38,022 nucleotides of DNA from an uncultured Armatimonadota bacterium (GTDB lineage: Bacteria; Armatimonadota; Armatimonadia; Armatimonadales; Armatimonadaceae), in contig CAIVZM010000047.1 in the NCBI GenBank assembly GCA_903910385.1, positions 1 through 38,022 on the forward strand. Reading direction: 5' to 3'. The notes below the pieces were generated by a model. That model did no database searches. It saw only the letters and a list, made by a program, of their open reading frames with translations, and was not told where the DNA came from. Numbering within the stretch: position 1 is the stretch's first letter; each line of letters starts with the position of its first letter. This document shows positions 1,447 through 32,487 of this stretch, piece by piece. The translations under genes and the position numbers were made by a program.

Positions 1447-2514
1447 ATGTATAACTCACGGCAATTATTTCTCCTGCGAGGAGCCGCAACCGTTATTCTG
1501 GCGGCAGGATTATGGCTGCCTACCGTCTCCGTATACGCTCAGAATAGCCGCGCCGCCCGTGTCGTCAATGACCCACTGGTCGATATCGTCGCCAATGGTA
1601 AAGGCAGAGTCAATTATAGCGCCGGCGTCGTCAAGGCGACGGGCTATGGCGCTCCGCCTGCGGCGGGAGTAGCATCTTCGGGGGCTCAAGCGAAATTGAT
1701 GGCGCTCGGTGCGGCGCGAGCGGACGCCCTGCGCACTCTTGCCATGACGGTATCTTCGATTCAGGTCACCGCAGAAACGAAGGTCAAGAACTATGTTCTC
1801 CAGAAGGACGAAGTTTCCACGCAGTTAGATGCGCTTCTGCAATCGCCCCGAATCGTTTCCGAAAGTATGCAGACGGACGGCACAGCCGTGGTAGTGGTGG
1901 AATTGCCGCTATACGGCAAAGACTCTATCGCTTCCGTCGTTTTGCCGGAAGTCCTGAAGTCGGAAGAGAATAACGCGGAAGTAGTGGAACCGGAAGTCGC
2001 CTACGCCCCGGTAGCCCCAGTAGGTGGCGCAGGAGCGACCTCCTCCGGCGAATTCCGTGGTCCCGCGCAACCAGCCATCCCGGTATCTCTGCCTCCTATC
2101 CCCAAAAGACCGACCTTGCCCCCCGGCGGCGAACCCGGTCAGACTCCCTTTTCCGATAATGGACCATTCACCAGCGTTTTGATCGATTGTCGCGGTCTGA
2201 ACATGGAAGCGGTAATGTCGCCGAAATTGTATGACACGACCGGACGCGAAGTCTACGGCACGATTCGGGTAACGCCTGAATATGCTATCGAAACCGGCAT
2301 CGTGGGATATCCACGCAGCATGGCGGAAGCGCTGAAGACGGCGCGTTGCGGAGCGCATCCCCTGATCGTTCGTGCTCTTCGGGTCGCTGACAAGCATCGG
2401 TTCAACCCTGTTATTTCGCTGGAAGATGCGGATCGGATTCTCGCCGCAAACAATCGCGACAAATTCTTGCAACAGACTCGCGTTATTTTTCTGGTAGACC
2501 CTGTAAGATATTGA
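1447..2514 (+). CDS. Exported LPP20-like protein (first gene of FlgT-like operon)
   Basis: 355 residues with an N-terminal signal peptide (hydrophobic stretch about 8-27, cleavage probably after VSVYAQ). Residues about 55-165 match the LPP20 lipoprotein-family pattern: a GVVKATGYGAPP strand, then a helix with AKLMALGAARADALRTLAMTV, then a strand with VVVVELPLYG. A proline-rich linker (about 215-240) leads to a C-terminal domain with the motif LIDCRGLNMEAVMSPKLYD and TGREVYG, which I associate with bacterial LPP20 proteins of unknown function. There is no lipobox Cys, so it is probably a soluble periplasmic or surface protein. AAGGA lies nine bases before the ATG. It heads a plus-strand operon with the next two genes; the shared domain families suggest one periplasmic assembly. 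Confidence 0.65.
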   Translation: MYNSRQLFLLRGAATVILAAGLWLPTVSVYAQNSRAARVVNDPLVDIVANGKGRVNYSAGVVKATGYGAPPAAGVASSGAQAKLMALGAARADALRTLAMTVSSIQVTAETKVKNYVLQKDEVSTQLDALLQSPRIVSESMQTDGTAVVVVELPLYGKDSIASVVLPEVLKSEENNAEVVEPEVAYAPVAPVGGAGATSSGEFRGPAQPAIPVSLPPIPKRPTLPPGGEPGQTPFSDNGPFTSVLIDCRGLNMEAVMSPKLYDTTGREVYGTIRVTPEYAIETGIVGYPRSMAEALKTARCGAHPLIVRALRVADKHRFNPVISLEDADRILAANNRDKFLQQTRVIFLVDPVRY

Positions 2515-2523
2515 ATATGCCTG

Positions 2524-2544
2524 GAGGGAAACCCAGTTTCCCTC
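2524..2544 (+). other. Intergenic hairpin inside the FlgT-like operon
   Basis: GAGGGAAAC (2524-2532) and GTTTCCCTC (2536-2544) form a perfect nine-base stem with a three-base loop in the 60-base gap between the first and second gene. The sequence after it is TTGACC rather than a T run, so it does not look like an intrinsic terminator. It could protect the 3' end of the first cistron or adjust relative expression. Confidence 0.5.
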
Positions 2545-2574
2545 TTGACCAGACCATAGAGGAAATCGCGGACA

Positions 2575-4590
2575 ATGCGGGTTTTGCTGTCTTTCCTGAC
2601 ACTGTTCTCCTTTGCTGTTGTCGCTTTCGCCGGACCGCCAAAGTCTGGAGAAGGCGACATTTTACGCATTTTTGAGAGTCAACGCGTCTATGTGATCACA
2701 AATGAAGAGCCGGAGTTGGCGAATTCCCTGCTTGATGGTTGTCATCTACGGCAAAAGTGTATTCTGACACCAGAAGAATGGGCGGAGATGCCGGAATCCA
2801 TTCGCGCTCTGGTAACTCGCGTTTATCTGATCAATCGTGAGAAACTGCCTTTCGGAACGATGCTTCCCGCCAAATGCCCTGCGGACAACGATGAATTGTA
2901 TACGCAGGTGGTTCGCAACGAATTTCGCTCCAGCACGACCTACGAGGCGATAATCTCCGCTCCGGATGGGTTCTATTTGCGTCAGGCGGCTATGTCATTT
3001 AGACGTCTGGCTTCTCTGCCACGAACGCCGATCAAGTTGAGCGTCCCCTCGTTAGCGATTGTCCCTGTCGGAATTGAGGCGGAACGAATCGCGAGACAAT
3101 CGTTCCTTAAGAGCGATTCAGCTCGTTTTCGCGCCGCACATATCCTGCGCCCGCAGGAGTACGCTCGCGTTCAACCACGACTGTACGCTTCTGACGAACT
3201 AATTTTGATTGATCGTAGCGTGGGTACTGTAGCAACCTCCCTTACCCTTACCGGATTGACCAGTGAGCACCCTATCAACGCGACGGAGACTGTAGCATGG
3301 CGTATCCGTAAGCAGGATGGCAAGATTCGCGCCGTCATTTCCGCGCCGAACGCCGCTCAGCTTACCAGCGCCGCCAAGGGAATCGGGGTTCTCACCGACC
3401 TGCCCGAAGAACCGACCATACTTGCCAATGCCCGTGATCTACGAAGCGTACGACGTATCGCTGTCGCCGGGATCAAGATGGGTAAATCTACGGAACTGGC
3501 GCGTCAACTGGCGGCGCGAGCCGCTTCGGACATCCGTGCATTGGATGCCTTCGAAGTTGTGGAACGTGAAGGGCTGTCGCAGATTCTCGGTGAGATTGCG
3601 CTCGGTCAGGCAGGAATCACGAAAGCCGGTGACCGTGTAAAAGTGCGTCAACTCGCCGCTGCGGATGCGCTTTTACTCGTGGATATCACTGGTATTGAAG
3701 CGCGTACCAACTATTCCGCCGCGCACAAACGACTGAGTCCAGCAATACCGCCGCCACCCGCACGCCCGAATGAACCAAGTCGTCTCAAGAACACGTTCGG
3801 CATCACTAATCAGGGAATCTTGAAGGTGGTGGAAGCGGTCTTCTCCCGGAATATCGGTACCAAAAACGAGGACGACTACCGCGATGAGTGCGATCGTTAC
3901 CGGAATGAGACATTACCACAATGGCAACGCCAGATGGAAGCCTATCAACAGGAACGGCGCAATCGACCCGTCAACTGGGAGCAAAAAATCGCCGCCCGAA
4001 GCGGCGTCCATGTCACCGGCAGTTTGCGTCTTGTCGATTTAAGCGATGGTCTGGTTTTATGGGAATCGCCGTTCGCCGCTTCGGATACCGAAGAGAGACT
4101 CTTTCGTACTGATACCCTGACCATTAACGGTGAAGATAGCCGTCCCGGCGCATTGGCTATTCCGGATTCCACGAATGCCGCTCCCGATGAATTGTTGTCA
4201 CGGGTCGCCGTTACGGCGTTACAGGAAGGCGTCTCTTCACTGCGCTCCACAGCGCTTTTACCCTGTAATCTTCCTGTCACCACCGTCAGCGCCGCTACCT
4301 CCTCTTCAGGAACCTCTGCCGCAAGCGCCAGTAGCATTTCTGTCGAAACGCCGCCCACCGCCAGCGGCAAGATTCTGGATGTAGACAACGACACGCTTCT
4401 GATCGGTCTCGGAGGAGGAGATGGTCTCAAGGTGGGCGATATTTTGACCATTTCTCTTGAGGATAAGAGCAAAGTCCAGGTTAGTGTCACCAAAATACGC
4501 CCCCGAACCTGTGATGCTATTTTTGCCGTCTCAGTGTCATCCCGGCAACGTGCACAGGTTGCGACGGGGCAAATGGTCACCAGGCGATAA
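2575..4590 (+). CDS. Exported CsgG-like protein with FlgT-C-like C-terminus
   Basis: 671 residues. A signal peptide occupies residues 1-19 (AVVAFAG at its end). The N-terminal third (20-280) is unrecognised, with paired cysteines at CHLRQKC. From about residue 288, RSVRRIAVAGIKMGK, then a helix, then FEVVEREGLSQILGE and LAAADALLLVDITGIE match the CsgG-type domain found in curli secretion proteins and in the middle domain of FlgT. The domain ends near residue 500 with SLRLVDLSDGLVLWESPF. A Ser/Ala-rich linker follows, then residues about 598-671 (GKILDVDNDTLLIGLGGGDGLKVGD) resemble the FlgT C-terminal domain. It probably acts in the periplasm or at the outer membrane. There is no lipobox, so true CsgG-pore behaviour is not implied. 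It is followed after 21 bases by the FlgT-N-like gene. Confidence 0.65.
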   Translation: MRVLLSFLTLFSFAVVAFAGPPKSGEGDILRIFESQRVYVITNEEPELANSLLDGCHLRQKCILTPEEWAEMPESIRALVTRVYLINREKLPFGTMLPAKCPADNDELYTQVVRNEFRSSTTYEAIISAPDGFYLRQAAMSFRRLASLPRTPIKLSVPSLAIVPVGIEAERIARQSFLKSDSARFRAAHILRPQEYARVQPRLYASDELILIDRSVGTVATSLTLTGLTSEHPINATETVAWRIRKQDGKIRAVISAPNAAQLTSAAKGIGVLTDLPEEPTILANARDLRSVRRIAVAGIKMGKSTELARQLAARAASDIRALDAFEVVEREGLSQILGEIALGQAGITKAGDRVKVRQLAAADALLLVDITGIEARTNYSAAHKRLSPAIPPPPARPNEPSRLKNTFGITNQGILKVVEAVFSRNIGTKNEDDYRDECDRYRNETLPQWQRQMEAYQQERRNRPVNWEQKIAARSGVHVTGSLRLVDLSDGLVLWESPFAASDTEERLFRTDTLTINGEDSRPGALAIPDSTNAAPDELLSRVAVTALQEGVSSLRSTALLPCNLPVTTVSAATSSSGTSAASASSISVETPPTASGKILDVDNDTLLIGLGGGDGLKVGDILTISLEDKSKVQVSVTKIRPRTCDAIFAVSVSSRQRAQVATGQMVTRR

Positions 4591-4611
4591 GCGTGTCAAA
4601 AGAGCGGATAA

Positions 4612-5742
4612 ATGTATCTTCATTCAAAAAATTGCTGGCTTGTTTTGCTGACTGTGTTGATAGCGCAGTCGCTAAATCCATTCACAATTGATTTATCTTT
4701 TGCCAGCGATGCGAATGACGGCATAACGCCCGTTGTCCGTATCGCGCCCATAGAAACAAAAGAGGTAATAGCGGAGGGACGTGCGGCAATCGGAGAAACC
4801 GGCGTTCCGGGCGCACGACAGGCGGCGACCGCACAGGCGCTTCGCGCCGCTGTGGAAAAGGCATTGGGCGTCTATGTGTCCTCCCGTACGTTGACCCAGA
4901 ACTACCAGATGGTGCGGGATCAGGTGTTGGTGCGGTCGGATGGTTATGCCACCCTGAAAGAAATCGTCAGCGAAAATATCGGGACTCAGGAAGTCCGCGT
5001 CACAGTTCGCGCCCTGGTATCTTTACGCCCGCTGGCGAAACAATTGAAAGCCATGAAATTGACTCGCGCTTGGCGAATCTACGTGGAATCCACTCCGGCA
5101 AACGATTCCTCGACACAAGCGAGCGTCGCCAGTGATGCAATCTCCGCTCTGGAAAATACGTTGTCCGATGCGGGGTTTGTCGTCGTCTCCCGAATCAAGG
5201 ATGCCGATATCACCGTCCAGATCGCACCTCGCTTCCAGAAAATCGCCGATATTCCCGCTGAGACGGGTAGCTTTTCGGCTACCATGCATTCGATCCGGGG
5301 AGATGTAGTCGCCAGAGCGATACGTGTTGGAACAGGAGAAGTGGTGGCATCGTTGTTCGCAACGCACACCAACTTCAATATCAATGCGGATGCGGCGCGC
5401 AGTCAGGCGACGACCGAAGCGACCCAGAGTCTCGCTCCCCAACTCACGGACGCTCTTATGGTACTGCCCGCCGCACAATCTCAGGCAATCACTCTTCAGG
5501 TTTCCGGTCTGAAAAATGTCACTCAGGCGGCGCAGTTAGAGGATGCTCTGAATTCACTTACAGGAGTCCAGAAAGTCACCCGTCGCGGCTATACGAACGG
5601 TTTTGCAAACTGGGAACTGGATATGCTGACCGATACCGTTTCTCAATTGCCTCGCGCCATAGAACAAAGCGGCGCGTTGCGCCGTTTCCGTCTGTCGGTA
5701 GCATCGGAGAATCGCTCCCGAATTATTGCGGCAGTTCGGTGA
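4612..5742 (+). CDS. Exported protein with FlgT N-terminal-like domain
   Basis: 376 residues. An N-terminal hydrophobic segment (about 8-31) acts as signal peptide or anchor. Residues about 50-145 carry the FlgT-N-like pattern: AEGRAAIGETGVPGARQAA, a helix ending in VEKALGVYVSSRTL, VRSDGYATLKEIV, then EVRVTVRALVSLRPL. In Vibrio this domain belongs to the H-ring flagellar protein FlgT. The remaining 230 residues show repeated strand-helix units (for example TLSDAGFVVVSRIKDADITVQI and TLQVSGLKNVTQAAQLEDALN) that I do not recognise. It is the third gene of the operon. No flagellar gene is nearby, so the shared fold rather than flagellar function is what can be claimed. It ends 20 bases from a convergent gene. 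Confidence 0.6.
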   Translation: MYLHSKNCWLVLLTVLIAQSLNPFTIDLSFASDANDGITPVVRIAPIETKEVIAEGRAAIGETGVPGARQAATAQALRAAVEKALGVYVSSRTLTQNYQMVRDQVLVRSDGYATLKEIVSENIGTQEVRVTVRALVSLRPLAKQLKAMKLTRAWRIYVESTPANDSSTQASVASDAISALENTLSDAGFVVVSRIKDADITVQIAPRFQKIADIPAETGSFSATMHSIRGDVVARAIRVGTGEVVASLFATHTNFNINADAARSQATTEATQSLAPQLTDALMVLPAAQSQAITLQVSGLKNVTQAAQLEDALNSLTGVQKVTRRGYTNGFANWELDMLTDTVSQLPRAIEQSGALRRFRLSVASENRSRIIAAVR

Positions 5743-17205: not shown

Positions 17206-18570
17206 CTACCCTGTTTTGGAAAAAGACGTTCCGTCTCTTCGCGATTGGGCAAGCTCGATAGCCATTTGCGCGGTACGGGTCGCACCGCCGGGTTCACCCA
17301 AAAGCTTGACGGTGGCTCGCAGATCAACGCGCATACGTTGCAATGTATCAGGTTCGAGAAGCAGTCCGACGATAGCGTCCGCAATATTTTCCGGCGTCGC
17401 TTTTTCCTGAATCAGTTCCGGGCAAATCTCGCGCTCCGCGAGGATATTGGGCATTCCTATAAACCGTGGCAATTTTTTCTTGACGAATTGATACTCCAGC
17501 CAGTTCGATTGCGCCAACCGATACATAATCACCATGGGACGCCCCAGAATCGCCGCTTCCAGCGTTGCGGTTCCGGAAGCGCAGATCAGCACATCCGAGA
17601 GCACCATCAGGTCATAGGTCGCCTCTTCGATAATCGCCAGCGGAAAATCACCGGAAGGCGGCGGAAGTTCGGCGGCGCGTCGTAACCAATCGGCTTGCCG
17701 ACGCCCGAAATCATCGGTTTTCGGCACGCCATTGCCCCCGACCGGAATCGGTACAGCCCCCGGACGATTCGTCCCCTCGTCCTCATGACAGCGCAGAGCC
17801 GGATTTGGCGCTTCCGTCCGACGCGCTTTTTCCACATGAGCGATCACCTCTTCACGGTCTACGGTCGGCGCAAGCGCGAGAACGAATTGAACGCCATGCA
17901 CCCGTTGATGAATAATCCGCGCCGCCGCCAGTTGCGCCGGGAGAATGTGCGTAATTTCCTGAGACCGGCTTCCCGGCAGGATTCCGACAATGGGACGTTC
18001 CGGGTCGATACCATGCTTTTCCGCAAAAGTTTTCAATGGTCCGGACGGATGCACAAGATCAAGCAAAGGGTGGCCGACAAAGGTGGCATCCACGCCGAAG
18101 CGGCGCAGTTCCGTCTCGCTCCACGGAAAGGGCGTCGCTACTTTATCGGCAAGAGCGCCCAGTGAAGACCCCTTCAGCGTTCTGCGCCACGAGCCCGGCG
18201 GAAAGTAGTAGAGAATGCGTGTTTCTGGGAGACGACGGCGTGTCCAGGGACAAAGTCCCTCAATACCGGGGAAGCCGATGTTGAATGCGCCGGCGTCTAC
18301 CGGGATCAGGACGTCCGGTCGGCGTTGCAGCAGGATCGAATGCAGTTGACGGCGGGCGGCAAGGATACGCGGCAATAATCCGATTGCGGCGGCGACTCCC
18401 ACTACCCCCCATCGGGTGGAATCGATCACCACCTCCGCTCCCGCGTCTCTAAGAAACTTTCCGCCTGTGCCCCAGATCGTTGCGCCAGGATGTAGCCGTC
18501 GAATTTCTTGCGCGAGTTGTCCGCCAACCCGGTCGCCGGACGCTTCCCCGGTAATGATCGCTATCTGCAT
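17206..18570 (-). CDS. lpxB: Lipid-A-disaccharide synthase, divergent with insertion
   Basis: 454 residues, longer than the usual 370-390. LpxB joins UDP-2,3-diacylglucosamine to lipid X at the inner membrane. Family marks are IITGEASGDRVGGQLAQEI at the start, FVGHPLLDL near 164, GILPGSRSQEI near 196, and SDVLICASGTATLEAAILG with PMVIMYRL near 325-350. Two regions differ: PVDAGAFNIGF replaces the usual Asp-containing PDFN motif, and YYFPPGSWRR replaces the SPSVWAWR type. About 58 residues (250-308), Pro, Arg and Glu rich, are inserted before FPLAIIEEATYDLM. The start ATG at 18570 follows an intergenic hairpin and lacks a clear ribosome-binding site. Position between lpxA and msbA supports the call. 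Confidence 0.88.
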   Translation of the reverse strand: MQIAIITGEASGDRVGGQLAQEIRRLHPGATIWGTGGKFLRDAGAEVVIDSTRWGVVGVAAAIGLLPRILAARRQLHSILLQRRPDVLIPVDAGAFNIGFPGIEGLCPWTRRRLPETRILYYFPPGSWRRTLKGSSLGALADKVATPFPWSETELRRFGVDATFVGHPLLDLVHPSGPLKTFAEKHGIDPERPIVGILPGSRSQEITHILPAQLAAARIIHQRVHGVQFVLALAPTVDREEVIAHVEKARRTEAPNPALRCHEDEGTNRPGAVPIPVGGNGVPKTDDFGRRQADWLRRAAELPPPSGDFPLAIIEEATYDLMVLSDVLICASGTATLEAAILGRPMVIMYRLAQSNWLEYQFVKKKLPRFIGMPNILAEREICPELIQEKATPENIADAIVGLLLEPDTLQRMRVDLRATVKLLGEPGGATRTAQMAIELAQSRRDGTSFSKTG

Positions 18571-18577
18571 CGGCTCT

Positions 18578-18613
18578 ACAGGGGAAGGAAACTCAACATT
18601 TGCCTTCCCCTGT
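18578..18613 (-). other. lpxA-lpxB intercistronic hairpin
   Basis: ACAGGGGAAGG and CCTTCCCCTGT form a perfect eleven-base stem with a fourteen-base loop in the 50-base gap between lpxA and lpxB. The stem ends eight bases before the lpxB ATG. No T run follows. It could slow lpxB translation or mark an mRNA processing site. Confidence 0.55.
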
Positions 18614-18620
18614 CCCTCCT

Positions 18621-19418
18621 TTACCGCCGCCGGGGACGGTCATTCGCCCTGCCAAATCCGCCTTCGCCGATTTGCTTGATGAACTCGACCAGATAAGCGA
18701 CTTCAGGGGTGATTTCCACCTCATCCTCAATAGCCTCTAACGCCTGCGTCACGTTCAGATTGGATCGGTATAGCAGTTTATACGCCTGTTTGAGAGCGGC
18801 GCGTGAGGCAGGCTTTATATCGGCGCGACGCAGACCACGGACATTCAGGTCTAGGATATCGGCAGGACGACCATCAGAGAGCATAAACGGCGGTACATCC
18901 TGCACTACCTTGGAGTATCCGCCCAGCATGGCAAGACGACCTATCCGCACAAATTGATGGACTCCGACCATGCCCCCGATAACGACATTATCCGCAACGG
19001 TAATATGCCCGGATAGGCCAGCATAGGAGGAAATCATGGCGTTGTTGCCGATGTGACAGTTATGTCCTACATGGACATACGCCATGATCAGGTTGTCATT
19101 GCCCAGTTCCGTCGCCTGGTCTTCGCCTGTCGCCCGATGAAGAGTTACAAATTCCCGAATCTCGTTGCGGTCGCCGACGCGAACATAGGAGCGTTCGCCT
19201 TTGAATTTGGCATCTTGCGGCGGCCCGCCCAGCACTGCCGCCGGGCGTATTTTGCACTGACGCCCAACTTCAGTGTACCGTTCCATAACAACATGCGGCC
19301 CGATGACGGTTTCATCGCCAATGACGCAATCGGGTCCAATGACGCTATACGCCCCTATTTCCACATTCTCCCCAACCTGAGCGGTTGGGTCAATGATGGC
19401 GGAGGGATGAATTTTCAC
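18621..19418 (-). CDS. lpxA: UDP-N-acetylglucosamine acyltransferase
   Basis: 265 residues, the usual LpxA length. It transfers a 3-hydroxyacyl chain from acyl carrier protein to UDP-GlcNAc, the first step of lipid A synthesis, in the cytoplasm. The N-terminal two thirds are hexapeptide repeats (IHPSAIIDPTAQVGENVEIG, VIGPDCVIGDETVIG) forming a left-handed beta helix. MAYVHVGHNCHIGNNAMI carries the catalytic His region, and MVGVHQFVRIGRLAMLGG is a family signature. The C-terminal helices (ALKQAYKLLYRS) contribute to trimer contacts. The start is a GTG with a purine-rich stretch (AGGGG then GAAGAG) in the 16 bases after fabZ. It is read from the same strand as its pathway neighbours. Confidence 0.95.
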   Translation of the reverse strand: MKIHPSAIIDPTAQVGENVEIGAYSVIGPDCVIGDETVIGPHVVMERYTEVGRQCKIRPAAVLGGPPQDAKFKGERSYVRVGDRNEIREFVTLHRATGEDQATELGNDNLIMAYVHVGHNCHIGNNAMISSYAGLSGHITVADNVVIGGMVGVHQFVRIGRLAMLGGYSKVVQDVPPFMLSDGRPADILDLNVRGLRRADIKPASRAALKQAYKLLYRSNLNVTQALEAIEDEVEITPEVAYLVEFIKQIGEGGFGRANDRPRRR

Positions 19419-19434
19419 TTCTCTTCAGTCCCCT

Positions 19435-19923
19435 CTATCCCGCCGTCTCACCGGGGGTGATTAATGCAAACGATAACTCGGCCTCACAGACGAGTTTATT
19501 ACCCACGTAAGCGGTCGCCTTGACCCAGCCGACGTTGCCACGCGATTTACCCATGATAATTTCCGCACGCAATGAATCGCCCGGCAGAACAGGTTTGCGA
19601 AAACGCGCCTTTTCTACGCCCGCAAGATAGGCGAGTTTTCCCTTATGCTCACTGGTGGTCAGCAACATGACACCGCCAACCTGCGCCATCATTTCGAGGA
19701 TCAGTACGCCGGGCATAATCGGGTTGCCTGGAAAATGTCCTGTAAAAAAAGGCTCGTTGAAGGTCACGCACTTTAATCCCACAACGCGTTTGCCCGGTTC
19801 CAGTTCCAGTATACGGTCTACCAGAAGGAACGGATAACGGTGAGGCAGAATATGGAGAATCTCTTTCGCTTCTATAATGCCTTCATGCGTCACACCGATT
19901 GTCCCTGTTTCATCCGTTTCCAA
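19435..19923 (-). CDS. fabZ: 3-hydroxyacyl-ACP dehydratase
   Basis: Dehydrates 3-hydroxyacyl-ACP in fatty acid elongation, competing with LpxA and LpxD for the same acyl donors. The single hot-dog domain shows ILPHRYPFLLVDRI and TGHFPGNPIMPGVLILEMMAQVGG; the catalytic pair is His63 and Glu77 in this numbering, 14 residues apart as in known FabZ. The frame is open back to an ATG at 20001, but that would overlap lpxC by 65 bases and add a foreign-looking N-terminus. I place the start at TTG 19923, with AGGG eleven bases upstream, 13 bases after the lpxC stop. GTG at 19893 is an alternative. lpxC and fabZ are fused in some bacteria and separate here. Confidence 0.92.
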   Translation of the reverse strand: METDETGTIGVTHEGIIEAKEILHILPHRYPFLLVDRILELEPGKRVVGLKCVTFNEPFFTGHFPGNPIMPGVLILEMMAQVGGVMLLTTSEHKGKLAYLAGVEKARFRKPVLPGDSLRAEIIMGKSRGNVGWVKATAYVGNKLVCEAELSFALITPGETAG

Positions 19924-19936
19924 AACGTCTTTATCC

Positions 19937-20797
19937 CTATTCTGTCGCCCATGCCGGAGAACTAAAAAGGCGTTCGTGCAGTTTTGCGGCGAATGCCGCA
20001 TTAAGACGGTGGCTGGGCTTCACGGCAATTATATCAGCAGGCGGCAACGCCCCGACGCCCGCCAGTGAGAGATCGCCAATTACATCAAGGAGTTTGTGCC
20101 GCGCCAGTTCGTTCTCAAAGCGCAAGGGGACGGAGTAACGGTCAGGATAGATAACGACAGCGTTTTCCAGAGTTCCACCGAGAGCCAGACCTGCCGCCCG
20201 CAACGCTTCCACTTCCTCAATAAAGCCAAATGTGCGTGCAGGAGCGATATCACGGGAGTAATCATTTATATCCGGTTCGAATCGAGCCAGTTGAGTCCCG
20301 ACAAGCGGATGCCCGAAAGAGATTGCGACGGTCAGACGAAACGAGGTAGCAGGATAGGCAGCGATAAAGGCGCCATCCTTGCCCGTCACTATCAAGGGCG
20401 TATCCAGCAGGGGAAAAGTCCTGTTACCTATCTCGGTCAATCCCACATCGTGGATTCCGGCAACCCAGATTTGCGCGCCGCCATCGCCAATGGGCAATTC
20501 CGGTCCCTGAATCTCAATCCGTACATCGGTCACGCCCAGCGCAGAAAGCGCAGAAAGCAGATGCTCCACCGTCGAGACGGAAGCGCCATCAGTTCCCAGA
20601 ATGGTGCAGCGAGAGGTATCGATGACATTCCCGGCATGGGCTTTTATTTCGATATTGTCGCGCAAAAATGTAATTCCCGCTCCAGGTTCAGCGGGGAATA
20701 ACGTTACGGTGGATTCCGCTCCGGTATGGATTCCGACGCCCCGGATGGTAATGGAATCCGTTAAAGTCCGCGCGGTCTGAGTAAACGATGATTTCAT
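19937..20797 (-). CDS. lpxC: UDP-3-O-acyl-N-acetylglucosamine deacetylase
   Basis: About 286 residues. LpxC removes the N-acetyl group from UDP-3-O-acyl-GlcNAc, the committed step of lipid A synthesis, using a catalytic zinc. SITIRGVGIHTG opens the first domain. VSTVEHLLSALSALGV supplies the first zinc His with the neighbouring Glu. The second domain has RTFGFIEEVEALRAAGLALGG and HKLLDVIGDLSLAG, with the second zinc His and Asp. The frame is open back to an ATG at 20836, inside lpxD. I chose ATG 20797, seven bases after the lpxD stop, because its N-terminus (about ten residues before the conserved RTL) fits known LpxC length; neither start has a clear ribosome-binding site. Confidence 0.93.
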   Translation of the reverse strand: MKSSFTQTARTLTDSITIRGVGIHTGAESTVTLFPAEPGAGITFLRDNIEIKAHAGNVIDTSRCTILGTDGASVSTVEHLLSALSALGVTDVRIEIQGPELPIGDGGAQIWVAGIHDVGLTEIGNRTFPLLDTPLIVTGKDGAFIAAYPATSFRLTVAISFGHPLVGTQLARFEPDINDYSRDIAPARTFGFIEEVEALRAAGLALGGTLENAVVIYPDRYSVPLRFENELARHKLLDVIGDLSLAGVGALPPADIIAVKPSHRLNAAFAAKLHERLFSSPAWATE

Positions 20798-20804
20798 CAA
20801 GGAA

Positions 20805-21875
20805 CTATGATTCCGATTCAGAAGCGTCCGATTCATCCGTCGCTTCTAATTGCTGAAGACGCCGCTCCATTTCACGTAACTTTTTGAGCATATCCGGCAA
20901 TTGATTGACCGCCGCCATCGTTTTGAGGTGTTCCTTATGAGGCCGAGCGCCGTACCCGGAAACATAAGCGCGAGCGGGAATATCTCCCATAACGCCAGTT
21001 TGTGCGCCGATGACCGTATTCGCTCCGATCTTGACCTGTTCCTTGACTCCTGACTGACCGGCGATAATCACATTTTCGCCCACTTCGACGCCTCCTGCCA
21101 GACCGACCTGCGCCACGATAATACAGTTTTCGCCAATCTGGCAGTTATGCCCGATATGCACAAGATTATCTATTTTCGTGCCTCTACCAATGCGCGTTGA
21201 GCCTGTTCGCGCCCGGTCAATTGTCACATTGGCGCCGATTTCGACGTCGTCATCAACCCTGACATTGCCGATCTGGGGGACTTTGCGATGTTTCCCTCCC
21301 AGAGTCAAATAGCCGAAACCATCCGCGCCCAGCGCTGCACCAGCATGAATGACTACATTGGCTCCGATGATCGTCCCACGCAACAGAGTGACATTGGGAC
21401 CGATAACGGAATTGTCGCCCACTTCTACATCATCGCCAAGGTACGACAGAGGATGAACGATGACATTTTCACCGAAGCGCACGTTCTCTCCCAGAACGCA
21501 ATTCGCTCCGATGGAAACATTTCCTCCGTTGCGGAAATCGCTTCCGATGACCGCCGACGGATGGATTTCACGGGCGGTATATTGCTCCGGTGCGAACAGA
21601 TCCAGAATTTGCGCAAAAGCGAGGCGCGGATTAGCCACCTGAATCATGGTTTTCGTCCCGCCTTCCGCACGAGCGGATTCCGGAGCGATTATAGCGGAAG
21701 CGGGCGACTGCACGGCATCGTCGAAAAACCGCATGCTTTCGGCAAACGTTATGTCGCCATTTTGCGCTTGATCGATTGAAGCAATACCTCGAATCACCAT
21801 CTGCGGGTCGCCATAGACACGCCCTTTTACGACAGCGGCAAGTTCGCCGACCGTCCTTTGTCGCGGTTCTTTCAC
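20805..21875 (-). CDS. lpxD: UDP-3-O-acylglucosamine N-acyltransferase
   Basis: 356 residues. LpxD adds the second 3-hydroxyacyl chain, to the amine of UDP-3-O-acyl-glucosamine. The N-terminal uridine-binding domain ([37 protein letters not shown]) precedes hexapeptide repeats ([30 protein letters not shown] and onwards). The catalytic His is in [38 protein letters not shown] and a C-terminal helix ([19 protein letters not shown]) match the acyl-carrier-contacting end. The start is GTG, overlapping the upstream stop as GTGA, with GGAGG six bases before it, so translation is coupled to the lipoprotein gene. Order lpxD, lpxC, fabZ, lpxA follows. Confidence 0.95.
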
Positions 21876-23206
21876 AAGCGTCCTCCCTTTACGGCGCTAG
21901 AAGCAGGAACGCCCGCAGCCAGCCTTTTTTGAAATTCCAGGGTCATGTCTTTTCTGTTGCTCAGGGTCGCTCGCTGAGTTGGATTACCTGCACTGTTATC
22001 CACGATAACGACATTCGTGTCTTGGTTCCGAGCAATATCCTTCACCGCATCAGAGACCACAATTCTTATTAATGATTCCAGTTCCTGACGTTGCGCTTTC
22101 AGGCGCGTGATCGCTCTTTCCGTAGAGAAAGCGCCAGGCGGTACGAATTTGATTCCCGGAAGCGATAAGTCCAATCCTCGATCAGCGTTTTGATTTTTCC
22201 CTATCATCGCGCTTTCCTGCATAGCGGCATCTTCCGCTACTAACACCGACTCCAGCGCCTGCCGTTGCGCCCGAAGAATCTGAGCGATTTCCATGTCATC
22301 TCGAAAAGCGTCCAACTGCGCTTCGATCTCCGCGAGTCGTCGCGCACGGGCATCCCGTTCCGCAACCGTCAATTCGTTCCTACCTTCGCCTTTGATACGG
22401 CGGATTTCGGTTTCGATCCGTTGCAATTCGCCCAGTTCACGCAGACGGTACGCTTCCAGACGTTCCGCCATCGTCGGAAACAGCGTAGGGCTTGCCGTTG
22501 TTCCTTTGGTTTGATCCGCCGCGCCGGCGCCTGGCAGGATCGGCGCCCTGACACCAGGCATCAATCTTCCTGGAGGCGGAAGATTTCTTACATTCACTCC
22601 CGGCGGAACAATGTAATCCACCGGGCGATTCAATTGTCCGGTGTAAAACGCAAGATACTTGTAAACTTCTAATTTCGCATCTCGAATTTCGTTAATGCTT
22701 TTCAGAGTCTGCGCTTCTATATTTTCTCTTTCACGTTGCGCTCTGGCTGCATCTTTCGCCGTTGCTACCCCGAGCAGCTCCGCGCGTTGCTGGTCGAGTA
22801 ATCGCGCCGTCCGGGCTTGCCGTTCTGCAATGTATTGCGCTAACTGTGTCTCCACCGTTTTCCGAAGCGCTTCCCGCTCACGTTCACGACGTTCCAGCGC
22901 TGCCGCATTCATCCCGCTTACGCTTCGATTATTGGGCAATGCTGGCAATTGCTCTGTCGCATTCAAGATGTTCGTCACGGGCGGCATCAACGTTTTGAGA
23001 CGCGCTTCCATCGCCCGTAACCGACGCACTTCACGCTGTAGCGGATGTTCCGCGATCAGCGCCGCCAGACGTACATATCCCATAGCAGGCGCAACATCGA
23101 CCTCATATTTTATCGATGGTGTCGTTGAACAACCCACCATCGATAAAATTAAGATTCCGCCGACGCCTAACGCAGAGGCGCTATTTATTGATCGATTTAA
23201 TGACAT
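21872..23206 (-). CDS. Coiled-coil lipoprotein, OmpH-like at its C-terminus
   Basis: 444 residues from the ATG at 23206. The frame is open upstream to 23368, but only the shorter form gives a lipoprotein signal: a hydrophobic stretch ([17 protein letters not shown]) with Cys after Val-Gly. The mature part is charged and helical, rich in Ala, Arg, Glu and Gln, with long coiled-coil stretches ([41 protein letters not shown]). Near the end, [22 protein letters not shown] resembles the last helix-strand of OmpH/Skp chaperones, which the upstream neighbour also has. I infer a membrane-tethered periplasmic chaperone relative; this is not established. It overlaps ompH by 26 bases and lpxD by four. 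Confidence 0.7.
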
Positions 23207-23831
23207 CCTGTGTGATGTCGTTGGCTGTATAAATAGCAACCTTACTATCGAATACAACCGCCAGACCCTTATCCTGAGCGATCTTACCGATAACTTGCTT
23301 GATAGCAAGCACTGTTTTGTTCGACAATTCCACGTTCTTAGCATCCACGACCCGGGAGAATTCATCATTTAGATTCTTCAAATACCCTTGCCCCTTTTGC
23401 TCTTGATCATTCAGATCCGCGTATTGCTTCTTCTGTTCATCCGTTGGAGCCGCCGTATTTTCCAGTCGTCGCTTCAGACCGATCTTATCCTGCCCCTTCG
23501 CCTCGAAATCAGCGATACGTTTCTTGTCTGCATCCGTCACCGGGCGCTTCTGGTACAGATCCGCCAGTTCTTTCAATTCCGGTTCTGTCAGGAAACGACC
23601 ACCATTTTCCTGCACCTTCATCATTACATCGCGCAGACCATTCACGATACCGTTGAGCGTACTGATGTCTTGCTGTCGCGCTTTAGATTCGTTTAAGACC
23701 TGATCTACATCGACGCTACCGAAAGCGGGAGCTACGCCTCCCTTTTGAGCAAACGCCGCCGGGGCGAGAGCAAGAACCGAAAGAACCATCAGGAACCATG
23801 TGGCGCGGCGGTAGCCAATATAACCACTCAT
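23181..23831 (-). CDS. ompH: OmpH/Skp family periplasmic chaperone
   Basis: 216 residues from ATG 23831, preceded by AAAGGAG about nine bases upstream; a longer frame to 23897 lacks this. The signal peptide (ATWFLMVLSVLALAPAAFAQ) ends at an AFAQ cleavage site. The mature protein starts with the OmpH strand (FGSVDVDQVLNESKARQQD), followed by charged helices that form the tentacles of Skp-like trimers, and ends with VLAIKQVIGKIAQDKGLAVVFDSKVAIY. OmpH/Skp binds unfolded outer-membrane proteins in the periplasm and hands them to BamA, the next gene upstream. It is slightly longer than E. coli Skp, mainly in the helical part. Confidence 0.88.
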   Translation of the reverse strand: MSGYIGYRRATWFLMVLSVLALAPAAFAQKGGVAPAFGSVDVDQVLNESKARQQDISTLNGIVNGLRDVMMKVQENGGRFLTEPELKELADLYQKRPVTDADKKRIADFEAKGQDKIGLKRRLENTAAPTDEQKKQYADLNDQEQKGQGYLKNLNDEFSRVVDAKNVELSNKTVLAIKQVIGKIAQDKGLAVVFDSKVAIYTANDITQDVIKSINK

Positions 23832-23957
23832 TTGGAATTTCTCCTTTATAGAAAGTTTCTTGAATTCAATTTTCATTAACGCGGGAAGCGCCCCCATACT
23901 CTTTATGCTGGTAAATGATCCGCAGGAGGTGGGGTTGCCTCTATATTTGTTTAGGTA

Positions 23958-25964
23958 TTAGAATGCCTGTCCGATAGAAAAGTGCGTTCGTTTCGTTTCG
24001 CCAATTCCATAATCCAGTCGCACCGGTCCGACAGGCGTCTTCACCCGGACGCCGAATCCAACGCCGAAGCGAGGGGAAAAGCCGGAAGTCTGGGAAAAGC
24101 CAGGCACATTACCTTTATTCGCGCCGCTTGCTCCCCAGGCGGATCCAACATCGGTAAAGAGAACGCCGGTCACCGTACCGCCTTTATCGACAGGAATTCG
24201 AAGTTCTACCGAACCCAGAAAGATATTGTTTCCCCAGAAACGGTCATCGTTGAAACCGCGCAATGTATCCGCACCGCCGATGAAATACTGTTCGGAGAAG
24301 CCGATATTGCCTGTCGCCGTTCCGACAAGAAGGCGCGTCGCCAACGTCTTTTTGGGATCCCGGATATTGGTTCGAGGCGTCGGGCTCAAACGGATGTAAC
24401 GCCGGGTATCAGCGCTCAATTTGGTAAACGGCCCGCGGCGGGTCTGTTCTTCCACCAGTACACGAGGAACATTGGGGGTTGCGGTATCACTGATATAGTT
24501 GGGATTGATATACGGCTTCTGCGTGTCGAATTGCCCCGTTCCGATCTCGAAAATCGGCGTGAAATAGTAACCGGCTGCGGGATCTAACTCATTATCCCGA
24601 GTATTCGTCACACTCCGCAAAGAAATCGCCTGAACATGCCCATTTTGTACCAAACTGCCGCGAATGCTATTGATTTCCTCGTTGGTCAGTTTATTCCAAT
24701 CCGGCTTGACATCACTATTCGCTTTCACGCCCTCAACCCGTAGGGAGGCGAAAACGCGACTAAACTCGCTCACGGGACGCCCCAGTGAAAGCGTCACACC
24801 TTTATTTTCTTCATAATACTGCTTGTCGGAATTCGATCCGATAGCGTTGGAAAGCGCAGAGTTAAAACGGAAATTCAGGCGGTCGTAGACGTTAACGCTC
24901 AACGATGTATTATTTTTGTCTACCCAGGGTTCGGTAAATCCGAAATCGTACTGGTTCTTGGAAACGGCGCCGCTGACCGTCCAGGAGGCGGTCACCGATT
25001 GACCTCGCCCCCGGAAGTTATTTTCGCCCAGTTCCAGAGTTCCTGTCAGTCGCTGCCGTTGCGAGTAACCGAAGCCGACCTGTACCTGCCCCGTTCTCTG
25101 TTCTGCAACCTGAACGGTAATTTTGACTTTTCCTTCTTCCAGTGGTTCGATACGCGGCTGTTCGACATTACCGAAAAGACCGGTATTAAAGACACGTTGA
25201 ATATCTCGCTGAAGAATGTTAATGTTGAGTGGTTCGCCGACCTTGGTGCGCATTTCGCGGGTGACGACTTCCGTGCGCGTCTTCTTCAGACCTTCGACGA
25301 CAATGGAATCGACCACCGTTTCCGTGACTGGGAATGTCAACGTCCCTGTCTTGGTATCGAAAACTTCCTGCAATTCCGACAAATAGGCATCATACCCAAG
25401 ATTACGATAGATACGCTGGATTTTGCGGGCGTCATCACGGACGGTATTGACGTTGACGACTTCGCCCGGTTTAGAGTCGAGAAACGGCAAAATCTGGCGT
25501 GTAGGATCAATGATCTTGCTGTTGCCGGAGACTGTAACGCGTGTGATTATCGGATTCTCGAAGATATCGACGGTGAGCGTGACTCGCTTATCTCCCGTGA
25601 TTTCTGAGCGAAAATAGACTTCGGTGTAGAAACCTTTATCCAAAATAGCGCGGCGGGCTGCCCCCAGAAGGTTATTTCGGAATATTTGCCCTTCCTTGAT
25701 TCCGGCATTGGTCAGGGCGTTACGGACGATGTCCGGGTTTGTCCGGGCTTGTTCCGTCGTCTTGACCTGTACGACGCCAAGTGGCAGACCTTCTCCAGGC
25801 AATACGGGTAATGGCTCATCGGGCGTAGCGGGTGTGTTGGCAGGCGGCGGCGTGGGAGCAACCTGCGCCAGAACTGGGGAACCCATCGCCAGAGAAAGCC
25901 CAACTAATAAGACGCCTACCACTAATGGGACGGCGGGTCGGAACGTCAACTGATTTCGCGTCAT
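23958..25964 (-). CDS. bamA: Outer membrane protein assembly factor BamA
   Basis: 668 residues. A signal peptide (VVGVLLVGLSLAMGSPVLAQ) is followed by a short Pro/Thr-rich linker. POTRA-type domains span about residues 60-335, for example VTVDIFENPIITRVTVSGNSK and TLTFPVTETVVDSIVVEGLKKT. The C-terminal barrel (about 340-668) has alternating strands, LRGF near residue 565 (the conserved VRGF/LRGF loop), and a terminal aromatic residue in FSIGQAF. The protein inserts beta-barrel proteins into the outer membrane. Fewer POTRA domains than the five in E. coli are visible, perhaps four. A sigma factor gene lies upstream and ompH downstream, 126 bases away. No Bam lipoprotein is present in the window. 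Confidence 0.93.
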   Translation of the reverse strand: MTRNQLTFRPAVPLVVGVLLVGLSLAMGSPVLAQVAPTPPPANTPATPDEPLPVLPGEGLPLGVVQVKTTEQARTNPDIVRNALTNAGIKEGQIFRNNLLGAARRAILDKGFYTEVYFRSEITGDKRVTLTVDIFENPIITRVTVSGNSKIIDPTRQILPFLDSKPGEVVNVNTVRDDARKIQRIYRNLGYDAYLSELQEVFDTKTGTLTFPVTETVVDSIVVEGLKKTRTEVVTREMRTKVGEPLNINILQRDIQRVFNTGLFGNVEQPRIEPLEEGKVKITVQVAEQRTGQVQVGFGYSQRQRLTGTLELGENNFRGRGQSVTASWTVSGAVSKNQYDFGFTEPWVDKNNTSLSVNVYDRLNFRFNSALSNAIGSNSDKQYYEENKGVTLSLGRPVSEFSRVFASLRVEGVKANSDVKPDWNKLTNEEINSIRGSLVQNGHVQAISLRSVTNTRDNELDPAAGYYFTPIFEIGTGQFDTQKPYINPNYISDTATPNVPRVLVEEQTRRGPFTKLSADTRRYIRLSPTPRTNIRDPKKTLATRLLVGTATGNIGFSEQYFIGGADTLRGFNDDRFWGNNIFLGSVELRIPVDKGGTVTGVLFTDVGSAWGASGANKGNVPGFSQTSGFSPRFGVGFGVRVKTPVGPVRLDYGIGETKRTHFSIGQAF

Positions 25965-26020
25965 TCTTCGATTCTTTCCCGGTTCCGAGGCCGCGCCGTT
26001 GATCCAATTTTCCGTCTTGC

Positions 26021-26779
26021 TTATCCGCCGCGTGAAATGTACCCCCGATAATAGGGTTCCAGACGCTGGCGCACCCGGTTTCTTGCCCGGTGCAGACGGG
26101 TCTTAACAGCCTGAACGGTTAACCCGGTAATCCGCGCTATGTCCTCGTACGATAAATCTTCCTGCTGTAAAATCAGCACCGTGCGATATTCCGGAGGCAA
26201 AGCCTCCACAGCACGCCGAATCTGCGCAGCAAGCTCCTGATCCAGCAGGACGCGTTCCGGCGCATCGCGCCAGTCAGCGACTTCCCGGGTCAGTTCGCCC
26301 GAATCCGTCTCAATGGAATCATCCAGAGAAATCGGTTCCCGTTCCCGTTGCCGGTCACGCTGTTTGAACCGATTCTTGCAGTTATTAACGGCGATCTGGT
26401 ACAACCAGGTAGAAACGCGAGCCTCCCCTCGAAACCTTCCCCATGCGCCATAGGCATTGATAAAGGTTGTCTGGGTCAGGTCTTTCGCATCCTCATGGTC
26501 GCCCACGACGCGCAGGATCAGGTTGAAAATCTTATCGTGATATTTTTTGTGTATCTGATCAAACGAAAGACGCCGATCGTCATCTATCGCTCCGGAGAGC
26601 GTACGAACGGGAGTTTTTGCGGGAGACGGTTCCGCCGCATCTTCCGTCTGGCCTGCGATCTGGCCTTGATCCGCATCTCGTTCTGGCGAAATCGCGTCAC
26701 TCTCCCCGATTGCGTCTTCTGTGTAGACAGCATCAATCGGCGAAAGTTTCTCCTTCCTCAAGGTGTTTGAGGCTTCCAT
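26021..26779 (-). CDS. ECF-type RNA polymerase sigma factor
   Basis: 252 residues from ATG 26779, chosen because GAGG lies six bases upstream; an ATG at 26833 lacks a site. Residues 1-70 are an acidic, low-complexity extension unusual for ECF factors. Region 2 (FDQIHKKYHDKIFNLILRVV, EDAKDLTQTTFINAY, RFRGEARVSTWLYQIAVN) contacts core polymerase and the -10 element. Region 4 (ALPPEYRTVLILQQEDLSYE, ITGLTVQAVKTRLHRAR) reads the -35. Sequence places it in the SigW/RpoE-like group. No membrane anti-sigma gene is next to it. Its site, between tamB and bamA, suggests control of envelope genes, as RpoE controls bamA, skp and lpx genes in E. coli; this is inference. Confidence 0.92.
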   Translation of the reverse strand: MEASNTLRKEKLSPIDAVYTEDAIGESDAISPERDADQGQIAGQTEDAAEPSPAKTPVRTLSGAIDDDRRLSFDQIHKKYHDKIFNLILRVVGDHEDAKDLTQTTFINAYGAWGRFRGEARVSTWLYQIAVNNCKNRFKQRDRQREREPISLDDSIETDSGELTREVADWRDAPERVLLDQELAAQIRRAVEALPPEYRTVLILQQEDLSYEDIARITGLTVQAVKTRLHRARNRVRQRLEPYYRGYISRGG

Positions 26780-26907
26780 AGCCGACCTCTTCAAGGAGAA
26801 GAAGGAATCTTTTCGCGGAAAATCAATAGCCATAACGAGATTTTTCTGAGGACGTGCTAGAACGTAGACGCGCCACTCGTAAAGTCATATTATCTCAAAT
26901 AGACGCT

Positions 26908-29900
26908 TTAGAACGAAATAGTTCCCCGGGTGAAGTATGTCACAGTCCCCTGCTCGTCGCGATCTACCCCCAGTTGGATGCGCGGTTGTATTTTATCGGA
27001 AGCACGGAACTGGAAAATTTCGTAACTACCGGAAAAACGGAAAGGTTCCGTCTGCTGTACAGATGTATCCTGACCGAACGTACGCGACACATCGAAAATA
27101 ATTCGGTCAAACGGTTTACTAAGCCGTTTCAGGAAGCGGACGCGGACTGGGGCATTGGGAGTATATTCCACCCCGATGCTTTCCAGTCCCAGAGAATTGG
27201 CTAATGAGTCTGTAATCGGCGCCAGATAACGGGGCAGATAGCTGGAGGTCAGCGCCTGCGCGGCGAACGCCCGTAATGCATCCTCAGTTTTGCCCTGCTG
27301 TCCCAGAGCGAGATAAGAGGAACCAATAACCAGACCGAATATCTCCCGTTGAGACAGGGGAGGATCAGAGGTTAGAGTAAATACGCTGGTTGATGCAGAA
27401 GCGAGGGAACTATTATCGGATAGTTCTGCATTACTGCTGATGATATTGTCCAACGGCCCATTGAGCGTCAGTGTTATCTTGTAAGTGTTGGTGCCTGAGC
27501 CAAACAACGCCTCTGCACCAATGGGGGAACCGCTGGCTGAGGTCGTACCTCGTGCAGTAATGCGACTGGTCGCCACAACATTCTGCGCGACCAGACCCGG
27601 ACTAGCAGTATTGAATCGCGCCTGAATGATGCCATTCTTTGCTACACGCAACAACGCCGTCGGGAATTGGATAAATCCCCCGTTGGTACGAACATTAGAT
27701 GTCACTCCCAGCGCCAACGACCCGGCAGTCGGTCCATTTGCGACAAAAAGCGGGCCAGTCAATTGGGCGTCCCCTTGCAAATCGAACTGATAAGGGAGGA
27801 AAGTTTGTCCCGCAATCAGACCGCGCAGTGTCGCCTTACGAGGAATAGAGATCGCAAGGTTGAAACTGGGATTGAAGGAGACGGCAGGTTTGGATTCGCT
27901 CTTTGTAGCCGAATCCAGCGGCAAACGGATTTCTGAATCCGTCAACTCGAGCGGATCCCCTACCGTGGAGATTTCAGGAGTCAACAACCGTCCAGCGACT
28001 TTCAGGTTACCGTTCGCTTTGAGTTTGAAGGCTTCTCGAAGCTTGAAAAGATTTTCTGCCACCGGGCGGAAATTTTTAAGTTTTACATCCAGATCAAATC
28101 TTCCATCAATGCCGGGAGCGTCTGTAGCCGTCCCCCGGCTGAGGAGACGGCGAAGATTTTCCAGCGTATTGATCGCTACTGAGCCTGCCACTTCCATCGA
28201 GCCGTAATCGCCTCGTTGTCCATTAAGACCTCCCAGCGTGAGACGGAACTGATCGAAAATGATCTGGTTGCCATCCAGGCGCAAAAGCGCATCGAAGGAT
28301 CGAACCGGGCTGACTTTATCACGGTCGCTCCCCGGTTCACGCGCCATTCGGTACCGCCCATTCACCAGAGAGACGGCGCCATCCAGTTGCGGTTGGCGCA
28401 AGGTGCCTGAAATCGCGACATCTGCTGCAAAGGTTCCTCCGATGTCAGTGGTCGCCGCTTCCAGAGCCGCCGCCTGCGCCTTCGCTGAGTTAGCAGCGGC
28501 TCTTTCAGGCCGTGTCAGGGCTTCAGGATTAGGCGGAAGGACTGCGGCAGGAACAAAAAGGGATCGAAGCGAGGAAAGATCCACCCGGGGCAGACGAGCG
28601 GAAACACGAATAGGTCGCTCCCCCAAGGTAGGATCATTCTCATAAGAGAACGGCAACTGGGCTGCCGCACGCAGTTGCAAATCTCCACGCTGAATATACA
28701 GACCGTCTTCGGGAACTATGATGTTATAACGTCCCTGTGCGTCCTGCTCCAGAAAGGCTTCCAGACGGGTCAATGGTATCGTGATTCCCTGCTCGTCCTG
28801 CGGCGAAGCGGTTGTCGAGGTTCTCATAGCGGAGTTTGTCACGACAAACAAATTGCGTCCCTGAAGAGATAGTGCAAGGCGAGGTTGCTTCGCAGATCCT
28901 TCGGCAGTCAGTGAAAACGACTCCAGCGATCCCCTTATCGGAAAACTTTCCAGTCCACGAATAGAACGAATAAAGTCCAGTGAGAACTCGTTGGAATCCA
29001 GAGACGCTTGCACCATGCCGTTGGGATCATATGTCCCCTGTCCTCGAATAGTCGCTCCGGGATGCGTAATGACCAGTGACGGAATGGTAATCTTTTCCCC
29101 CTCAAGGGACGCCTGCACATTCAAGGAATCCGCTGTGAATTCGCCCAGTTTCAATTCACGCGCCGCCAGGGAGCCAGCAGCCCGAATCTCGCTCACTTTT
29201 CCGTTGACAAGTTTTGCGCTTGCGGTCAGGTTTTCAATATCGAACTTTGCATCGGTTGGGTACGGTAACTGCGCCAGCCCTCGGACAATCGTAGCGCCTC
29301 CTGCGGTCTGGCTGATTCCCGAACGCCGTATTGTGTCCAGCAAGACTTCGAAATTGCCATTCTTAACATCCAGTGTCCCACGCAATTCACCAGTACTGAA
29401 GTCTGCGTAAAGTTTCCCCGCCTGTATCTTTGTTTTGTCACGCCCTATGGACACAGACGGAATTTCCAAAACGTAACGCTTTGCATCCAGGTTCGCGATA
29501 AAGCGCAATTGATTGACCAGAAAGTCGGTATAGGTAGTTCCGGCGAGGGTCAAAATCGGCGAGCTGAAACGGGCTGTGATAATCGGGCGTTTTATCGTTC
29601 CCTGAAAGGAGCCTGAAGCGGAAAGAGCGCCCTGAAGGTTGCCCAGATCACCCATCAAGTAGGTGACGCGACTGATATCCAGCGCAGGTGCGGCAAAATC
29701 GCCGTTGATGGTTCCATCCCCACGTAATGTCGCTTTTCCGATCAGATTTCCCACGGTGGCGTTTATAGTCACATCGGTCAGGACAGTCAGTTGCGGCGTG
29801 AACGAAAAAGCTAACGATGCCCCCTGAAGCGGATAATTCGCTACCTGCAAGTTTCCAAGCGTCGCCTTGCCACGTACATTCGGTGCGGTAAGTGTGCCAT

Positions 29901-32430: not shown

Positions 32431-32487
32431 ATCGCCTCCTCCGTTTGCATTTTCAGGAAGAAGCGTAGCGCCCAATCACGGGTCTGG

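Follow-up and report, generated by a model that had tools for sequence, protein, structure and literature searches.

FlgP, FlgO and FlgT have been treated in the open-licence literature as accessories of the flagellar motor, FlgT in the H-ring of the Vibrio polar motor and FlgP, a member of the LPP20 family, in the basal disk or H-ring of Campylobacter and Vibrio. A hairpin insert in the FlgP family correlates with ring formation (PMC12222027). Treponema pallidum Tp0624 is an OmpA-family protein with a proposed role at the cell wall, whose central D2 domain had no structural analogue as of 2016 and had not been seen apart from D1 and D3 (PMC5104382). Here we describe three exported proteins, P1, P2 and P3, with relationships to these families and to CsgG, the curli secretion channel; we found no description of an operon of this kind in the open-licence literature. 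We show which domains the proteins carry, that their genes are linked and in places fused, that they are under purifying selection and that they occur independently of flagella. We further propose, at what we would call even confidence, that the trio forms, at the outer membrane or on the cell wall, a non-flagellar periplasmic ring, disk or scaffold that would resemble an H-ring or basal disk.

The window, by which we mean the whole stretch of 38,022 nucleotides that was analysed, belongs to an Armatimonadota assembly of 4.47 Mb that is 95% complete, and the named close relatives are Armatimonadota MAGs. The three genes that an earlier note had placed at 1447-5742 are real, intact open reading frames on the + strand, separated by gaps of 60 nt (P1-P2) and 21 nt (P2-P3). 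Opposite-strand genes flank them on both sides, DUF2071 upstream and a monooxygenase-like gene downstream, and the three appear to be a self-contained operon, laid out as follows.

1447..2514, + strand: P1, 355 aa
P1 residues about 58-165: SHS2 domain of FlgP/LPP20 type with the ring-forming hairpin (profile match)
P1, between the SHS2 and Tp0624-D2-like domains: Pro-rich linker
P1 residues about 230-352: Tp0624-D2-like domain (profile match)
2575..4590, + strand: P2, 671 aa
P2 residues 28-148 and 149-278 (window 2656-3408): two tandem N-terminal alpha/beta repeats (hhalign)
P2 residues about 290-560: CsgG/FlgT-middle domain (Pfam, Foldseek)
P2 residues about 387-464: Pro-rich and helical insert in the middle domain (model)
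P2 residues about 595-671: FlgT-C-like beta barrel (model)
4612..5742, + strand: P3, 376 aa
P3 residues 48-140: FlgT_N, SHS2 with hairpin (Pfam, model)
P3 residues 150-288: FlgT-middle/CsgG-like domain (model)
P3 residues 290-375: ferredoxin-like C domain (model)

By inspection, each of the three proteins starts with a hydrophobic export signal, and a pattern scan found no lipobox in any of them, nor in the aligned homologues of P1; some Helicobacter FlgP proteins likewise lack one (PMC11756786). The trio lies outside a flagellar locus, as the earlier note had it: a Pfam scan of the window proteins, which did not include every small ORF, showed no flagellar, curli or pilus gene. A curli or secretion locus was rejected for want of partner genes among the scanned neighbours of the operon. 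Elsewhere in the window, an envelope cluster on the - strand (17206-32475) encodes TamB-like, Omp85, LpxD, LpxC, LpxA and LpxB proteins and is consistent with an LPS-type outer membrane. Other loci of the host genome hold a tandem of three secretin-domain genes (G000:C14:32592-36735), a second CsgG protein joined to a P3-type C domain (G000:C33, L087:9608-10786) and a second P1-like protein (G000:C2, L081:6854-8107).

P1 is FlgP-like, FlgP being an H-ring/basal-disk family separate from FlgT. In a profile search of solved structures its N domain matched Campylobacter FlgP (9hmf, E 9.6e-18), gap-free through the hairpin insert, and Vibrio FlgP (8z5n, E 1.9e-6), while with Pfam P1 scores 20.3 bits for LPP20, under the cut-off of 25.9, and 16.6 bits for FlgT_N. 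The C domain was matched in the same way to Treponema Tp0624 (5jir, E 3.5e-16, 56.4 bits); the region concerned is D2, the match to D1 reaching only 3.6 bits, and Pfam finds no OmpA domain in P1. The N domains of P1 and P3 are themselves homologous (profile comparison, E 8.9e-14).

The two protein models, built on 18 and 28 sequences (pTM 0.54 and 0.65), give fold matches that are good domain by domain; their domain packing is not. A sequence search of solved structures with P2 gave no meaningful match. In Foldseek, its model (pLDDT 85) places FlgT at ranks 1 and 2 (1.6e-8, 3.0e-8), with CsgG next at 4e-4, and the alignment spans the middle and C domains of FlgT; Pfam recognises FlgT_C in two of 28 P2 homologues. 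The N-terminal part, an 'unfamiliar extension' when the locus was first read, consists of an alpha/beta domain of ~120 aa in two tandem copies (hhalign E 1.2e-8), for which there is no Pfam family. Weak Foldseek rows for these repeats (5bxr, 1mqq, 6pv4) hint at a possible glycosidase-accessory-like fold.

The model of P3 (pLDDT 79) also finds FlgT first in Foldseek (6.2e-9, 4.9e-8), here across the N and middle domains, and contains a hairpin after the SHS2 helix, ahead of the next strand, modelled with low confidence (pLDDT under 50 at residues 88-93 and 103-108). Against Pfam FlgT_N, P3 scores 25.3 by hmmscan, under the cut-off of 28.8, and passes at 29.4 in a whole-genome scan; its C domain bears a faint similarity to copper-chaperone folds. 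Profile homology between the middle domains of P2 and P3 is undetectable, though the FlgT fold matches both. Structure prediction and the Pfam CsgG match thus bear out the FlgT and CsgG folds that the earlier note had recognised by eye, and the domain matches to FlgP, FlgT, CsgG and Tp0624 are far beyond chance. Its picture of FlgT domains spread over three genes holds in outline as a domain list but needs redrawing: P3, assigned to FlgT-N, does carry FlgT_N and, by the Foldseek alignment, a middle domain too; P2 supplies a second middle domain and the C domain; and P1 is FlgP-like. Because there are two middle domains and P1 is of the FlgP kind, we reject the idea that one FlgT was divided among the three genes. 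Instead, the FlgT domains have been redistributed and partly duplicated.

Neighbourhood comparison confirms that the three genes stay together, both in the host's family, where all six carriers are compatible with the order P1-P2-P3, and, as adjacency or fusion of P2 and P3, across the phylum. Three of the six are collinear (G000, G009 and G007, the last with one extra small ORF); in G001, G002 and G003 a contig ends in or beside the cluster and the remaining gene lies at the end of another contig. Among 291 genomes of the phylum, P2 is matched in 69 and P3 in 72, weak single-domain matches counted, and P3 comes immediately after P2 at 18 of the 34 strong P2 places; several of the remaining ones are at contig ends. 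P2 and P3 are fused in family f16 (1401 aa in G045, 636 aa in G222). In distant clusters (f5, f9, f13) P2 is replaced by CsgG-like proteins, among them some with the Tp0624-D2 domain, with FlgO matches above cut-off and with SLH cell-wall domains; in relatives the D2 domain stands either behind a CsgG domain or alone. At two such sister clusters (L080:7572-12038, L099:8707-11341), SLH/FlgO-matching CsgG-like proteins lie beside P3-like and P1-like ones, an arrangement that resembles a wall-attached FlgO/FlgT/FlgP set. The neighbourhoods revealed no conserved client gene. In three relatives, P1 is downstream of DUF350, spermine-synthase-like and unknown membrane genes (L069:10763-15062, L070:1095-7172, L094:5151-10551; DUF4178 also in L070). 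The membrane gene found upstream with DUF350 and spermine-synthase genes (G002, G005, G009) was considered as a conserved partner and rejected as not general, because it is absent from the host genome.

We propose that P1, P2 and P3 are secreted to the periplasm, where they would build a heteromeric ring or disk, either on the wall or against the inner face of the outer membrane. In P1 and P3 the SHS2 domains would polymerise by way of their beta-hairpins, in the manner of FlgP in the basal disk. The CsgG/TolB-N-like domain that P2 and P3 each carry could form a second tier, the part taken in the H-ring by the corresponding domain of FlgT. The C domains (Tp0624-D2-like in P1, the barrel in P2, ferredoxin-like in P3) may then contact wall, membrane or a client machine, and the whole would serve as an envelope scaffold or collar unconnected with the flagellum. 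We favour a periplasmic ring or disk because two of the three proteins have the hairpin that is correlated with rings in the FlgP family and two of the three have the FlgT-type middle domain. Envelope proteins often have the middle-domain fold (PelC, TolB, LptE, TraT), which by itself implies no ring. A point against a ring is the lack of a lipobox in all three, when CsgG and many members of the FlgP family are lipoproteins. The SLH domains of the sister clusters, together with Tp0624, suggest that the trio may be linked to the cell wall.

The FlgP- and FlgT-like parts raise the question of whether the trio is instead the H-ring/basal-disk set of a flagellum since lost, or serves a flagellum elsewhere in relatives. 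FlhA is present in 204 of the 291 phylum genomes, and in family f18 some 10 kb separate flhA and flhF-like genes from a P1-like gene and one encoding the Tp0624-D2 domain alone (L085:13568-15211, L086:8889-10466), so a flagellar use of that paralogue is possible. Against this stand several observations on the trio itself. A search of the host genome (95% complete) for the flagellar export gene FlhA and the MS-ring gene FliF found neither, in agreement with the non-flagellar setting described in the earlier note. In a genus without FlhA the trio is intact, and dN/dS between two of its genomes, about 0.11 (P1), 0.17 (P2) and 0.24 (P3), shows purifying selection, though the values are rough given dS >1. 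In flagellated relatives, the genes scanned around the trio or around sister clusters are non-flagellar, the separate f18 pair excepted. Uncorrected for shared ancestry and with some genomes incomplete, FlhA occurs in 42/57 strong P3 carriers versus 162/234 others (p = 0.63), and in 15/24 genomes with strong P2 and P3 versus 189/267 others (p = 0.48). Across the 291 genomes there is no sign that the trio depends on flagella, and a phylum-wide association was rejected on this test. We consider a flagellar relic or detached part highly improbable.

Two other explanations keep the trio in the envelope while giving it a different task. P2 might be the CsgG- or PelC-like part of a secretion or polysaccharide-export pore at the outer membrane, with accessory rings formed by P1 and P3. 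The Pfam CsgG score of P2 lies above the cut-off (28.6 bits against 20.8), the P2 middle domain by VIA-align is equally close to PelC (Z 12.5), CsgG (Z 12.2) and FlgT (Z 12.1), and P3 is followed in family f18 by a gene for polysaccharide biosynthesis. Once the C barrel is included, however, FlgT ranks far above CsgG (1.6e-8 vs 4e-4), and curli and Pel genes were not seen among the scanned neighbours. A pore is also made less likely by the lack of a lipobox in P2 and by the monomer model, in which the Pro-rich, helical insert shows neither of the two CsgG-type membrane hairpins; taken together, we regard an export apparatus as unlikely. The trio could also be a small complex without a ring that tethers outer membrane and peptidoglycan together or regulates wall synthesis, in the manner of LpoB or TolB. 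The CsgG proteins of the sister clusters match LpoB and TolB_N in addition to their SLH domains, and Tp0624, which shares the C domain of P1, is proposed to work at the wall (PMC5104382). Most diderm Terrabacteria reportedly use OmpM and are without the well-characterised outer-membrane attachment systems (PMC10628300), which also counts in favour of this reading. The trio in the window, by contrast, has neither SLH nor OmpA domains by Pfam, and signal peptides are its sole membrane anchor. We think this tether or wall regulator rather unlikely and retain the ring or scaffold as our working proposal.

In a bacterium that apparently has no flagellum, these ring-type parts seem to serve a non-swimming job of their own, and the orphan D2 fold of Tp0624 gains a second, recurring context. 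An intact, conserved FlgP/FlgT-like operon in apparently flagellum-less bacteria makes it testable whether such rings were first general envelope structures that were later recruited to the motor. A more far-reaching and doubtful version of the proposal sees in the trio a periplasmic ring machine that is widespread in Armatimonadota and independent of the flagellum. Such a machine would be kin to the stock that supplied flagella with their H-ring and basal-disk proteins, and would brace either the outer membrane or an unknown machine.

P2 has the core fold of CsgG, but differs from that channel in lacking a lipidated cysteine and, in the model, membrane hairpins, in carrying extra domains on either side and in having no curli genes among the scanned window proteins. 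In Tp0624 (5JIR) the order is D1-D2-OmpA, whereas P1 is without OmpA and has its match to the central D2 behind a FlgP-type domain. That N domain is like FlgP of Campylobacter and Vibrio (9HMF, 8Z5N) down to the hairpin insert, and unlike it P1 adds the D2-like domain, has no lipobox and sits outside flagellar genes. Vibrio FlgT (3W1E, 8Z5N) holds its N, middle and C domains in one chain, whereas here they are spread over P2 and P3 with extra domains, in a host genome without detected FlhA or FliF. FlgT is nevertheless the first Foldseek match of both proteins, P3 sharing its N and middle domains and P2 its middle and C domains.
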